From assembly GCF_003122215.1 (NCBI RefSeq), contig NZ_QEYD01000012.1, forward strand, positions 1-64,000: a stretch of DNA of 64,000 bases, read 5' to 3'. The notes beneath the pieces were generated by a model. The model was not told the origin of the DNA and did no database searches. It saw nothing but the letters and a program-made list of their open reading frames with translations. A program made the position numbers and the translations under genes. Numbering within the stretch: the stretch's first letter is position 1; every line of letters begins with the position of its first letter. The stretch comes from Pararhodobacter marinus (GTDB lineage: Bacteria > Pseudomonadota > Alphaproteobacteria > Rhodobacterales > Rhodobacteraceae). Below are positions 1,226-58,380 of the stretch, one piece after another.

Positions 1226-2127
1226 CAGTAATTCTCCCGCAGGTCCATGCCCTCATAGAGCGCGGCGACCTCGTCCTCGTAGCCGTTGAACATCAGCGTG
1301 TCCTGCCGGCGCGCGAACAGGCCGCCGCCGATCTGACGCTCGGTCGCCTGGCTCCAGCGCGGGTGGTCCACTTCGGGGTTCACGTTCGAATAGAACCCGT
1401 ATTCGCGCGCATTGAGGTTGTTCCACGTTGTTTCGGGCATCGTGTCGGTCAGGGTGATCCGTACGATCGACTTGATCGACTTGAAGCCGTATTTCCACGG
1501 CACGACCAGCCGGATCGGCGCGCCGTTCTGCTTGGGCATCGGCTCGCCGTAGATCCCGGTGGCCAGCAGCGTCAGGGGATGGCGCGCCTCGTCAAGCCGC
1601 AGACCTTCAATATAGGGGAAGGGAATGACGCCGCGCCGCACGCCCGGCATGTTGTCGGGCTGCACCACGGTCTCGAACGCGACGAAGCGCGCGCCCGATT
1701 GCACGCCCACCCGGTCCAGGACATCGGCCAGCTCGACCCCGTTCCAGGGCACGACCATCGACCACGCCTCGACACAGCGGAAACGATAGATCCGCTCTTC
1801 GATATCCAGCCCGTCCAGAAGATCGGCCAGCGCATACTCGCCCGGATTGTCGACCATCCCGTCCACGGTGATCGACCACGGCTCGATCTGCATCGCGTCG
1901 GCATGGCGCATCGGATCTTCCTTGCCGGTGCCGAACTCGTAGAAGTTGTTGTAGCTCGAGATCTGCTCCAGCGTGTTGGGCTCCAGCCCCTGCGCCATGG
2001 CGCCCCGTCCGGCCATCGACAGCGCGGTCGCGCCCGCCATCCCCGCCATGATCTGTCGGCGGTTGAGCCACAGAGCCTTGGGTGTGACATCGGCATGGGT
2101 CAGATCGTTCGTCCAGCGGCGGGCCAT
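1225..2127 (-). CDS. msrP: MsrP, Tat-exported molybdoenzyme, protein-methionine-sulfoxide reductase catalytic subunit
   Basis: A 300-residue sulfite-oxidase-fold molybdopterin enzyme (YedY family) that reduces methionine sulfoxide in periplasmic proteins. A twin-arginine signal is visible at the N-terminus (LNRRQIMAG, R23-R24, followed by an Ala/Gly-rich stretch to about residue 45). The cysteine that ligates molybdenum lies in FRCVEAW (about C118). An open frame reaches further upstream, but the start is placed at 2127 because AAAGGAG lies just before this ATG and the Tat signal begins there. The gene overlaps msrQ downstream, forming the msrPQ pair. In related bacteria the system responds to reactive chlorine or oxidative stress; no operator could be identified here. 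Confidence 0.94.
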   Translation of the reverse strand: MARRWTNDLTHADVTPKALWLNRRQIMAGMAGATALSMAGRGAMAQGLEPNTLEQISSYNNFYEFGTGKEDPMRHADAMQIEPWSITVDGMVDNPGEYALADLLDGLDIEERIYRFRCVEAWSMVVPWNGVELADVLDRVGVQSGARFVAFETVVQPDNMPGVRRGVIPFPYIEGLRLDEARHPLTLLATGIYGEPMPKQNGAPIRLVVPWKYGFKSIKSIVRITLTDTMPETTWNNLNAREYGFYSNVNPEVDHPRWSQATERQIGGGLFARRQDTLMFNGYEDEVAALYEGMDLRENY

Positions 2128-55414: not shown

Positions 55415-55532
55415 CGCCTTTGCCCGTTCCCCTTGCCTGTTCCCGTTCCTGCGACATCAACGTCAGGATCGCGCGGTTGTTCCCGCGGCGGCCGGGCTTC
55501 AAGGCGTCATGCGGCCCGCGACACGCGCTCGG

Positions 55533-55561
55533 TTGACCGCCGCGCCGGCCGGGGCTAAGAC
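55533..55561 (+). promoter_or_regulatory. predicted promoter of the trpL-trpS transcript
   Basis: TTGACC (55533-55538), exactly 17 bp, then TAAGAC (55556-55561). The expected start of transcription is about seven bases further, at 55568-55569, which is the A of the leader peptide ATG. This would make the leader open frame leaderless, and indeed no Shine-Dalgarno precedes it. Confidence 0.7.
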
Positions 55562-55568
55562 CGGCGCC

Positions 55569-55616
55569 ATGGAAAACGCGCAGATCCTGACGACCCTGTG
55601 GTGGCTGGCCTCCTGA
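55569..55616 (+). CDS. trpL: tryptophan leader peptide upstream of trpS
   Basis: A 15-codon open frame MENAQILTTLWWLAS with tandem Trp codons at 55599-55604, ending TGA at 55614-55616. Tandem Trp codons just before alternative hairpins are the hallmark of ribosome-mediated attenuation: scarcity of charged tRNA-Trp stalls the ribosome there. The start codon coincides with the predicted transcription start and has no ribosome binding site, as for the leaderless trpL of Sinorhizobium, whose peptide ([14 protein letters not shown], from memory) begins similarly with M-x-N-x-Q. Here the regulated gene is trpS rather than trpE. The peptide itself may be only a sensor. Confidence 0.85.
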   Translation: MENAQILTTLWWLAS

Positions 55617-55666
55617 CAAGGCGGCCGGACGTTTCCTGTTCCTCGAGGCCGCCGCATGGGCGGCCT
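55605..55666 (+). promoter_or_regulatory. trp attenuator: competing antiterminator and terminator hairpins
   Basis: Four segments can pair alternatively. Segment 1 CTGGCC (55605-55610, just after the Trp codons) pairs with GGCCGG (55623-55628). Segment 2 GGCGGCC (55620-55626) can instead pair with segment 3 GGCCGCC (55647-55653), the antiterminator. Segment 3 AGGCCGCC (55646-55653) pairs perfectly with segment 4 GGCGGCCT (55659-55666) to give the terminator, followed by TTCGTGTTCT. A ribosome stalled on the Trp codons masks segment 1, so 2:3 forms and trpS is transcribed. Confidence 0.82.
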
Positions 55667-55721
55667 TTCGTGTTCTCTGTGTCCCCCCTGCGGCCCCTCG
55701 CCCATTCCCAGAGGACACACC

Positions 55722-56723
55722 ATGACCAAACCCGTCATCCTGACCGGAGACCGCACCACCGGCCCGCTGCATATCGGCCATTACGCGGGCTCGCTTGCCA
55801 ATCGCCTGCGCTGTCAGGACAGCCACGAGCAGTTCCTGCTGCTCGCCGATACGCAGGCGCTGACCGACAACGCCCATGACCCCGCCAAGGTGCGCCGCAG
55901 CGTGATCGAGGTCGCGCTCGATTACCTTGCCGTGGGGATCGACCCGGCGCGCTCGACCATCTGCCTGCAATCGCATCTGCCGGCGCTGGCCGACTTGTCG
56001 ATGCTGTATCTCAATTTCGTCACCGTCGCCCGGCTGGAACGCAATCCCACGATCAAGGACGAGATCCGCGCGCGCGGTTTCGGGCGCGACATCCCGGCGG
56101 GCTTCCTGTGCTACCCGGCGGCGCAGGCCGCCGACATCACCGCGTTCCGGGCGACCGTGGTGCCGGTGGGCGCCGATCAGGCGCCGCTGATCGAGCAGAC
56201 GAACGAGATCGTGCGCCGCATCAACGCCACCGCCGGCCACCCCGTCCTGCCCGAGGCGCAGGCCCTGATCCCCGAGGCGGGGCGGCTTCCGGGCATCGAC
56301 GGCAAGGCGAAAATGTCGAAATCCGGTGGCAACGCGATTGCGCTCTCGGCCTCGCCCGACACGATCCGCGCCGCCGTCCGGGCGATGTACACCGATCCCG
56401 GCCATCTGCGCGTCGAGGATCCGGGCCGCGTCGAAGGCAATGTCGTCTTCACCTATCTCGATGCGTTCGACGAGGATCGCGCGGGGCTGGCCGAGTTGAA
56501 GGCACATTACCGGCGCGGCGGTCTGGGGGACGGGCGGATCAAGGCACGGCTGGAAGACATCCTGCAAACCCTGATCGCACCGATCCGCGAACGCCGCGCG
56601 GCGCTGGCGCAGGACACGGATTATGTTCTGCGGATCATCCGCGAAGGGACCGAGCACGCCCGCGCCCGGACCGAGGCCACGAGGCGCGACGTGATCGAGG
56701 CGCTCGGCCTGTTCCGGCTCTGA
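55722..56723 (+). CDS. trpS: tryptophan-tRNA ligase
   Basis: A 333-residue class Ic synthetase that charges tRNA-Trp. The HIGH motif is HIGH at 17-20 ([14 protein letters not shown]), and KMSKS is in [10 protein letters not shown] (about 196); [21 protein letters not shown] is the usual Trp-recognition region. The HIGHYxGSL form resembles the second bacterial TrpRS type, often auxiliary to a housekeeping enzyme with HLGN; whether another trpS exists in the genome cannot be seen here. GAGG precedes the ATG at 55722. A leaderless trp leader peptide and attenuator lie upstream, so it is probably induced when charged tRNA-Trp is low. Confidence 0.93.
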
Positions 56724-56754: not shown

Positions 56755-58380
56755 TCACTTGCGCATCGGCGGGACGTCGTCGGGGTCGAGTTTCAGCTCG
56801 ATCAGAAGCGGGCGGTCGCGGGTCGCGATCGCCTGTTCCGCCGCGTCCAGATCACCGGCCGAGGCCACCGTGACGCCCACCCCGCCCAGCGCGGTGGCGA
56901 CAGCGGCGAAAGACGGCCAGTCGAATTGCGACAGGGCCGGGTCCATCTGCCGGTCGCGGAACTGGATATGCTCGGCCCCGTAGACCGCGTCGTTGGCGAC
57001 GATCACGATCAGGTCCAGCCCCATCCGCACCGCCGTGTTGAACTCGGTCAGGCCCCCGGCCATGAAACCCCCGTCGCCCGTGAACACGACCACCGGCACG
57101 CCCGGCGCGGCCAGCCCCGCGCCGATGGCCTGCTGCAGCCCCAGCCCGATCGAGCCGAAATTCGTCGACAGCAGGAAGCGCCGGGGATCGGGAACCGACA
57201 GCCGGCACCAGACCTCGGTCATGAAGCGCCCGCCATCGGTCGCAAGCACCCGCGCGCGCGGCAGGGCCGCGTCGAGCCGGTCGAGCGCATACGCGAAATC
57301 CACATGCCCCGGCGACGCCGCCCCGGCCCGCCCGGGCGGGTGACGCGTGACGCTGGCCGCGTCGATCTCGGTAGCAAAGCCGGACGGCGCGATCTCGGCC
57401 TCGTCGAGCCAGTGCAGGATATTCCCCGCCGTCAGCCCGGCATCGGCGATCAGCGCGGCATCGGGGCGGTAATTCGCGGTGAAGGTCGCGGGATCGGTAT
57501 TGACCTGCACCACCCGCTTGCCCCCCAGAAGCTTGCCCCGGTCGGTGGTGAACAGATGCAGGCTGGCGCCGAAACCGATGACGCAATCGGCCTTGGCGAT
57601 CACATCATAGGCGCCGGGCGTGCTGAGCGTGCCGAAAATCCCGATATTGCCCGGATGCCCCTCGAACAGACCCTTGGCCTTGAGCGTGGTGGCCAGGGGC
57701 GCCTCCAGCCGTTCGGCCAGCGCGATCAGCGTGTCGCGGGCCCCGACCGCCCCCTTCCCGGCAAGCACCACGGGCCGCCGGGCCGAGGCGATCATGCCGA
57801 TGGCCGCGTCGAGGGCCTCGCCTTCGGGCACGAAGGCGGGCGTGTCGAAGACCGGCAGCACGCGCGGGCGATGGGGTGTCTCGTCCCACATGAGGTCCGA
57901 GGGCATGTTGACCACGACGGGCCGCCGCTCGATCCGCGCGCGATAGAAGGCGATGGCGATATCCTCGGCCGCATGGGCGGCCGAGCGCATCTGCTCGAAC
58001 CCGGCGCCGGTGGCCTTCACCACCTCGCGCTGATCGGTGTTCTGGGGATTCTCGGGCGCCGTCACCGCCGTGTCGCCTGCCAGCAGCACCATCGGCAGAC
58101 GCCCCCGCACGCCTTCGGTCAGCGCGGTCGAGCAATTGGTCAGCGCCGGGCCGTGGGTGATCGTGGCCAGACCCACACCGCCCGAAACCTGCGCATAGGC
58201 CAGCGCCATCAGCACCGCGCTGCCTTCATGCGCGACCGGCACGAAGGTGCCGCCGCCCGCCCGGACATAGTGATCCACCATGAACAGATTGGCATCGCCC
58301 ATCAGCCCGAACATCGTGCCGATCCCGTGATCCAGCACCGCCTGTGCGATGGATTGATGGCAATAGGTCGTCTCGCTCAT
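56755..58380 (-). CDS. thiamine pyrophosphate-dependent enzyme (acetolactate synthase large-subunit-like)
   Basis: A 541-residue three-domain TPP enzyme. The N-terminal pyrimidine-binding domain has the catalytic Glu in VAHEGSAVLMALAYAQVSGG, a central Rossmann domain (about 195-330; RPVVLAGKGAVGARD), and a C-terminal domain with the TPP motif GDGGFMAGGLTEFNTAVRMGLDLIVIVAND (GDG at about 430). Relatives include acetolactate synthase, benzoylformate decarboxylase and sulfopyruvate-type decarboxylases. There is no small regulatory subunit nearby, so an anabolic acetolactate synthase is unlikely. The reaction is undetermined. The start ATG 58380 has GGGGAG before it. It is convergent with trpS. 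Confidence 0.85.
   Translation of the reverse strand: MSETTYCHQSIAQAVLDHGIGTMFGLMGDANLFMVDHYVRAGGGTFVPVAHEGSAVLMALAYAQVSGGVGLATITHGPALTNCSTALTEGVRGRLPMVLLAGDTAVTAPENPQNTDQREVVKATGAGFEQMRSAAHAAEDIAIAFYRARIERRPVVVNMPSDLMWDETPHRPRVLPVFDTPAFVPEGEALDAAIGMIASARRPVVLAGKGAVGARDTLIALAERLEAPLATTLKAKGLFEGHPGNIGIFGTLSTPGAYDVIAKADCVIGFGASLHLFTTDRGKLLGGKRVVQVNTDPATFTANYRPDAALIADAGLTAGNILHWLDEAEIAPSGFATEIDAASVTRHPPGRAGAASPGHVDFAYALDRLDAALPRARVLATDGGRFMTEVWCRLSVPDPRRFLLSTNFGSIGLGLQQAIGAGLAAPGVPVVVFTGDGGFMAGGLTEFNTAVRMGLDLIVIVANDAVYGAEHIQFRDRQMDPALSQFDWPSFAAVATALGGVGVTVASAGDLDAAEQAIATRDRPLLIELKLDPDDVPPMRK

Follow-up and report, generated by a model that had tools for sequence, protein, structure and literature searches.

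A putative leaderless Trp-codon attenuator ahead of an auxiliary tryptophanyl-tRNA synthetase gene in Pararhodobacter marinus and its relatives

The trp leader of E. coli carries a 5′ UTR with a Shine-Dalgarno (SD) sequence. For synthetase genes, a study by Vecchione and Sello from 2010 reportedly describes, to judge by its title, a ribosome-mediated attenuator of an auxiliary, antibiotic-resistant tryptophanyl-tRNA synthetase (TrpRS) gene in Streptomyces, and work by Lopatovskaya from the same year is said to treat the attenuation of amino acid and aminoacyl-tRNA operons and may already predict part of the finding presented here. In the available parts of the respective papers, an attenuator is predicted for Streptomyces avermitilis trpS2 (PMC1262725), the trpL transcript of Sinorhizobium meliloti begins at the leader ATG (PMC7298713), Deinococcus TrpRS II partners with nitric oxide synthase (PMC9437257), and the trpS mRNA of Caulobacter crescentus carries a putative small leader CDS (PMC4117421). 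Apart from this Caulobacter leader CDS, the accessible portions of the open-licence literature yielded no proteobacterial trpS attenuator.

Here we analysed a stretch of 64,000 nt from contig NZ_QEYD01000012.1 of Pararhodobacter marinus (hereafter the window), and we consider it likely, with a probability of about 0.85, that a leaderless, ribosome-mediated transcription attenuator controls an auxiliary TrpRS gene (trpS-II) in it and is induced by a shortage of charged tRNA-Trp. Transcription would begin at the A of the leader ATG, and a ribosome would initiate on the 5′-terminal AUG. With sufficient Trp-tRNA, this ribosome would get to the stop codon and mask segment 2 of the leader, and the terminator made of segments 3 and 4 would form; if charged tRNA-Trp ran low because Trp was short or the housekeeping TrpRS was inhibited, it would stall at two Trp codons, segments 2 and 3 would pair, and RNA polymerase would continue into trpS-II. 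The start site, the stalling, the efficiency of termination, the induction and its physiological trigger are the parts of this scheme that we infer.

All elements lie on the forward strand. The -35 element TTGACC (55533-55538), whose counterpart positions are conserved in relatives, is followed after a 17-nt spacer by the -10 element TAAGAC (55556-55561), with the leader ATG 7 nt further on; the probable transcription start is the A of this ATG (55569), judging by the conserved spacing, the C at position -1 and the rarity of SD sequences described below. The leader ORF, MENAQILTTLWWLAS, comprises 15 codons (55569-55616), is recognized from sequence and conservation, and contains the tandem Trp codons TGGTGG, the putative regulatory codons, at 55599-55604. 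Directly 3′ of these codons, segment 1 (CTGGCCTCCT, 55605-55614) is indicated by folding and covariation to be the partner of segment 2 (AGGCGGCCGG, 55619-55628) and could thereby act as anti-antiterminator. By sequence and pairing analyses, segment 3 (AGGCCGCC, 55646-55653) could pair either with segment 2 or with segment 4 (GGCGGCCT, 55659-55666), which together with a U-rich tail, TTTCGTGTT, completes the intrinsic terminator 3:4 (55659-55674) recognized by covariation, terminator scan and terminator tests. A downstream element, TGCGGCCCCTC ... GAGGACA (55689-55717), is predicted to have two pairing partners, segment 3 and, with weak pairing, the SD region of trpS-II, which encodes 333 aa at 55722-56723. 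Every position in the original prediction, which comprised the TTGACC-17-TAAGAC-7-ATG arrangement, the 15-codon ORF with its tandem Trp codons, the segments and trpS, was confirmed, and the pairing of segments 1 and 2 that it proposed was seen as a hairpin in the window's minimum-energy structure, with compensatory changes in relatives.

The U-tract of the window is modest. A terminator scan of 55415-55760 found one terminator, and a consensus scanner found no sigma-70 promoter in the same interval. An initial script for terminators, in which T-runs were judged more strictly, left the window's terminator unflagged and flagged unrelated T-runs in the type B leaders defined below, and it was rejected; a later test for a stem and a T-rich stretch flagged the window's terminator. 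The Rfam search gave nothing but a sub-threshold match of the terminator hairpin to isrD, which was taken as chance.

The trpS product matches TIGR00233 (trpS) at 221.7 bits (cut-off 176.75) and contains both class-I signatures, HIGH and KMSKS. Its closest solved structure is Deinococcus radiodurans TrpRS II (2a4m, 1yi8; E 7.7e-114), with the next other chain at 3.4e-63, and chains 5v0i and 5dk4, which we take to be the E. coli and Geobacillus TrpRS, match at 7e-37 and 1e-33. The count of trpS paralogues suggested with the original prediction revealed another TrpRS in the same genome, on another contig and 29% identical to the window's enzyme. Because of this second, divergent TrpRS and of the proximity to Deinococcus TrpRS II, sequence relationships identify the window gene as an auxiliary TrpRS-II and not the housekeeping TrpRS. 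The alignment of the ADxQA/VDxHA motif has Gln in 14 of 14 TrpRS-II rows and His in three housekeeping rows; this His presumably contacts indolmycin. The gene apparently stands alone, the next long ORF (56755-58350) lying on the other strand and matching a thiamine-enzyme family. Some TrpRS match occurred in 243 of 248 genomes sampled from the family and a close TrpRS-II relative (at least 79% identity) in 11 of them, the window's included and one being a fragment; below this group, the next TrpRS among the matches listed was at most 34% identical. In the window's genome, the best candidate for trpE (286 bits, below the family cut-off) lies 40 nt behind another ORF and has no leader with a tandem Trp (WW) pair.

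Loci for comparison were the best 80 from a genome-contig search and 10 from the family sample, window included; with L038 (no upstream sequence), L061 (gene start unmatched) and L012 (fragment) dropped, the set held 88 loci, including repeat genomes such as L003/L032, L006/L035 and L009/L042, and L040/L041 as one shared leader. A short ORF with TGGTGG precedes trpS-II in 61 of these 88 loci, which are the best-matching relatives with the window included, so that the tandem Trp codons are kept to that extent, and 9 to 12 codons, mostly 10 or 11, separate the chosen ATG from the Trp pair. A strict criterion (ATG 9-12 codons ahead of TGGTGG, a stop shortly downstream, at most 300 nt upstream of the gene) was passed by 60 of the 61 leader loci; of 6100 dinucleotide shuffles six passed, and of 20 housekeeping trpS loci none did. 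The recurrence of the WW leader is not due to chance. The 27 loci called as lacking it are 17 from Acinetobacter, seven from Cupriavidus, and L056, L086 and L093, among which L086 shows TGGTGC where the Trp pair is expected, a degenerate form. Within the 64-kb window, the strict criterion was passed at the trpS leader and at one other place (34396, minus strand). The tandem Trp codons are invariant in a 24-row alignment whose rows were picked for having them, and the N-terminus of the leader peptide differs strongly between clades, which argues against a broadly conserved function of the peptide itself.

A class-level sample of 385 genomes gave 32 with a TrpRS-II match at E 1e-90 or better, and the upstream regions of 30 of these 32 matches were inspected. 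Seven, the window's included, had at least 70% identity, six of them with a WW leader and L119 with a single-Trp form. No WW leader was found at the 23 loci with 46-58% identity to TrpRS-II (L121-L143), which belong to Alphaproteobacteria with genomes of 0.6-2.1 Mb; L130, hit by a looser pattern, has a single Trp. As further observations from the compared loci, L040 and L041, from MAGs labelled Nitrospira and Parvibaculum, share an identical trpS-II leader, which may reflect one contig binned twice, and in a Silicibacter genome a Guanidine-II riboswitch (RF01068, 35.2 bits; L036, 5281-5328, minus strand) lies close to the trpS-II locus.

The leaders were aligned as type A (24 rows, alignment A1) and type B (32 rows, A2: 31 leader-bearing and L086), together covering 55 of the 61 leader loci and leaving out L003, L006, L009 and L041 (repeats), L066 and L089. 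Type B rows (L050 to L104) are largely from Rhizobiales and Burkholderiales. In type A, the terminator 3:4 was paired in 97.4% of cells with three pairs changed on both sides, and segments 1:2 in 82.8% of cells with seven cells changed on both sides; none of 500 shuffles was as high in either case, and the count of both-side-changed pairs at 1:2 was reached by 31 of 500 shuffles. The antiterminator 2:3 was paired in 94.0% with one both-side-changed cell, reached by 77 of 500 shuffles, and covariation in type A neither supports nor opposes this pairing, since 2:3 hardly varies. In type B, segments 1:2 were paired in 96.1% with three both-side-changed cells, and the 2:3 core showed no covariation (84.4% paired, not better than shuffled). 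All six pairs of the downstream element with segment 3 are retained in 13 of the 24 type A rows. The region inside 2:3 folded better than shuffles over 55 rows (mean z -1.1, the related rows being non-independent), with the window's own z near 0. Among the pairing segments originally proposed, 1:2 and 3:4 are thus conserved with compensatory changes, but covariation at 2:3 is weak in type A and absent in type B. Two outcomes that would have spoken against the original prediction, WW codons or pairing not being kept in relatives, did not occur.

Equilibrium folding of the complete leader did not separate the stalled from the unstalled state, and it was set aside because the proven E. coli leader likewise favoured the terminator in both. 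When the RNA was ended at segment 3, with the ribosome edge placed 15 nt downstream of the codon being read, a stalled ribosome let segment 3 pair upstream in every leader of type A (24 of 24) and of type B (31 of 31); with the ribosome at the stop codon, the upstream pairing exceeded 0.5 in 3 of 24 and 1 of 31, respectively. The E. coli trpL control gave 0.83 stalled versus 0.05 at the stop; the window gave 1.00 versus 0.45, a less clean separation than in most rows. With the full terminator present, folding favoured the terminator in 24 of 27 rows with a stalled ribosome and in all 27 with the ribosome at the stop.

The upstream regions of the 61 leaders fall into 57 distinct sequences, of which 56 had sufficient length for alignment on the leader ATG. 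Information peaked at TTG (-36 to -34), at A/T (-13 to -11) and at -1. In the first of these peaks, T occupies -36 in 38 and -35 in 50 of the 56, and G occupies -34 in 37; at -1, 49 have C and 5 have T. Three of the 56 leaders contain an SD-like 4-mer between -16 and -4, a looser test on the trpS starts giving 44 of 56; one test applied to both (SD 4-mer 3-12 nt ahead of the start) gave 3 of 56 leaders versus 43 of 55 trpS starts. A Variovorax plasmid relative has a TATAAT box 7 nt upstream of the leader ATG. Because the promoter-ATG distance is fixed, C prevails at -1 and SD-like motifs are rare, a transcription start on the leader ATG with no SD has strong though indirect support from the sequences, and the leaderless reading offered at the outset gains from the promoter-to-ATG spacing conserved in the 56 leaders. 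It could be argued that transcription comes from further upstream and that the ORF is started by internal entry, as the consensus scanner sees no promoter; we regard this as quite improbable in view of promoter-like signals at a fixed distance, the prevailing C at -1, the scarcity of SD 4-mers in leaders compared with trpS starts and the Variovorax box. It would be barely credible that the WW ORF is there by accident, with the hairpin serving solely as a constitutive terminator or as the gene of a small RNA: lone terminator hairpins are common and the second place in the window passes the short-ORF criterion by chance, but WW leaders recur in the majority of the 88 loci, shuffles rarely and housekeeping trpS loci never pass, and segments 1:2 covary.

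The mode of output deserves closer weighing. All type A rows except L047 (23 of 24, the window among them) passed a simple terminator test (a stem of at least 6 pairs, then at least 5 T in 8 bases), as did 5 of 32 type B rows, three of them Kiloniella; in L063, one of the other two, the flagged hairpin is a hairpin over the SD itself. This SD hairpin was paired in 94.5% of type B cells with seven both-side-changed cells and 0 of 500 shuffles as high, the count of both-side-changed pairs being reached by 92 of 500; segment 3 with the downstream element was paired in 92.4% with four both-side-changed cells, a 3-column slide scoring nearly alike (0.155 against 0.164). Predicted SD accessibility did not differ between the stalled and the unstalled state: stalling raised it in 11 of 23 rows of type A and in 19 of 29 of type B. 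From these models, type B may represent a translational attenuator subtype with 2:3 as its ON state, and it bears on the window only via the corresponding downstream element at 55689-55717. The attenuator might therefore be real and its control be mainly or additionally translational, with the SD hairpin opened via segments 2 and 3 and the terminator secondary. The covarying SD hairpin of type B, the pairing of its segment 3 with the downstream element and the 27 of 32 type B rows failing the terminator test all lend something to this possibility; for the window we nevertheless find it rather unlikely, as the SD hairpin there is short and a terminator is present, predicted accessibility is the same in both states, and the downstream covariation is nearly matched by the slide. 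Transcription attenuation as originally predicted hence agrees with the terminator in the window and in type A, but most type B rows lack a comparable terminator and may be translational; the broader proposal of Trp-codon attenuation of trpS is backed by the WW codons, the spacing and the conservation of 1:2 and 3:4 in the sequences compared. For the transcription attenuator that we prefer in the window, the anatomy, its conservation, the second TrpRS, the spacing and the predicted 2:3 pairing during synthesis of segment 3 are what the analysis shows.

TrpRS genes were counted with a housekeeping TrpRS query in 49 genomes (50 loci minus L051), bearing in mind that where three matches appear, two are pieces of one gene. 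All 34 leader-bearing genomes among them have at least two TrpRS. Among the 15 genomes without a strict WW leader, 12 have TrpRS-II alone, six Cupriavidus and six Acinetobacter (L059, L064, L065, L077, L078, L080, L091, L094, L095, L100, L106 and L107), and three have two TrpRS with no tandem Trp codons (L056, L086 and L093); in those Cupriavidus and Acinetobacter genomes, TrpRS-II has apparently replaced the housekeeping enzyme. The association between leader and spare status has a hypergeometric probability of 4.9e-9 with phylogeny ignored, a value that overstates the evidence because the 12 TrpRS-II-only genomes stem from two clades. In the protein tree, Cupriavidus basilensis, with a leader and two TrpRS, is sister to seven leader-free Cupriavidus rows, six of which were included in the copy count; this position suggests that the switch was lost when TrpRS-II took over, and Acinetobacter suggests a second such case. 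Mesorhizobium, Bradyrhizobium sp. 190 and Kiloniella are placed among Rhodobacteraceae, which is consistent with horizontal transfer of TrpRS-II. The attenuator first predicted as a Rhodobacteraceae system is indeed found in that family but, by the protein tree and the locus search, is not limited to it.

A covariance model built on the type A and Kiloniella leaders, the window's row among them, gave one strong match in the window's genome, the window leader itself (83.6 bits), with the next at 20.8. Across 289 genomes of the class, nine matches reached E 0.001 or better; those beyond the window were two trpS-II leaders (60.7 and 60.0 bits), of which the G477 leader, outside the model's rows, scored 60.7 bits, and six matches at 25.7-33.7 bits. 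The model reaches only part of the type B leaders. Three of the matches (L188, L189 and L190) resemble plain terminators. Another (L185 in G561, about position 1500, minus strand, 33.7 bits) is a WWWLA leader with a similar hairpin arrangement before trpE(G), suggesting, from sequence, that trpE and trpS leaders share an origin or converged. On the plus strand of L186 (G505, about 1450-1650), the ORF MTEMMHITAVYFARLP, which has one Tyr codon, begins 6 nt after a TATATG box that is accompanied by TTGACA; a terminator hairpin comes next, directly ahead of a tyrosyl-tRNA synthetase-like gene, an arrangement that may be a leaderless tyrS attenuator. At L187 (G536, about 1480-1700, plus strand), a WW leader ORF, MFTRENFDCFQDWWTVF, precedes a terminator-like hairpin, a methyltransferase-like gene and then a transporter-like gene. 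A promoter-ATG-TGGTGG pattern run on 367 genomes of the class matched most of them by chance and was rejected as too loose; a similar pattern gave five matches in the window's genome, of which only the window's was accepted as a leader, by eye.

TrpRS-II-like genes (E 1e-80 or better) occur in 88 records of a plasmid collection, including Klebsiella and Staphylococcus, some of these records being chromosome-sized and 58 lying below 60% identity. Five of seven plasmid stretches examined carry a WW leader (Roseibium, Agrobacterium, Methylocystis, Variovorax and an E. coli plasmid), and none was seen in the other two, L192 and L197. In L192 (Rhizobium leguminosarum pRL23b4, 1-2499), TrpRS-II lies directly behind genes of the coproporphyrinogen oxidase family and for an FAD-dependent oxidoreductase, possibly as an operon. 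The E. coli plasmid pB379_2 (L196, 1330-2502), an IncFIB plasmid, carries TrpRS-II with a WW leader and a terminator near IS26. Its leader region recurs in six plasmid-collection records, three at 99% identity or more and three at 81-82%. A search of 5426 E. coli genomes with leader and gene together gave two matches, the second of which had an overall identity of 77%.

We tentatively propose, at slightly less than even odds, that these loci represent a transferable, inducible backup charging system, in which the attenuator moves together with TrpRS-II among Alpha-, Beta- and Gammaproteobacteria and plasmids, keeps the spare off until the housekeeping TrpRS fails through starvation or a natural inhibitor, is lost once TrpRS-II becomes the sole TrpRS, and has at least two output modes, a terminator and an SD hairpin. 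The suggested role of the auxiliary TrpRS-II would be rescue when charging of tRNA-Trp fails, and the leader becomes more interesting for governing a spare enzyme within a widespread, sometimes plasmid-borne cassette. If true, attenuation of synthetase genes would reach beyond Streptomyces trpS to proteobacteria, in a family that is widespread and whose reader ORF is leaderless; a testable rule would follow (an attenuator with a spare enzyme, none with a sole copy), and the relatives would form a natural series in which output passes from a terminator to what appears to be control of translation.

Compared with known systems, the window shares its switching logic and similar folding-test behaviour with the E. 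coli trp leader (RF00513), although a search with this family over the window and 19 relatives never reached the gathering threshold, the E. coli control scoring 93.1 bits. Deinococcus radiodurans TrpRS II is the nearest solved relative of the window's enzyme, and its known partner, NO synthase, has no match anywhere in the window's genome. The Caulobacter crescentus leader CDS, likewise ahead of trpS in an alphaproteobacterium, is described in the available part of its source without Trp codons, an attenuator or auxiliary status (PMC4117421). As far as the accessible part of its account goes, the Sinorhizobium meliloti trpL/trpE(G) system resembles the window in a transcript starting at the ATG (a start inferred for the window), in tandem Trp codons and in transcription attenuation, but its leader governs anthranilate synthase and the window's a tRNA synthetase, and, unlike in S. 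meliloti, no leader of this kind precedes the best trpE candidate in the window's genome. The auxiliary trpS of Streptomyces, in the portion of the literature available, also has a Trp-codon leader and an attenuator ahead of the gene; that system is actinobacterial whereas the window's is proteobacterial. Attenuators of trpS are thus known from Streptomyces, and the system described here would be a leaderless proteobacterial variant.
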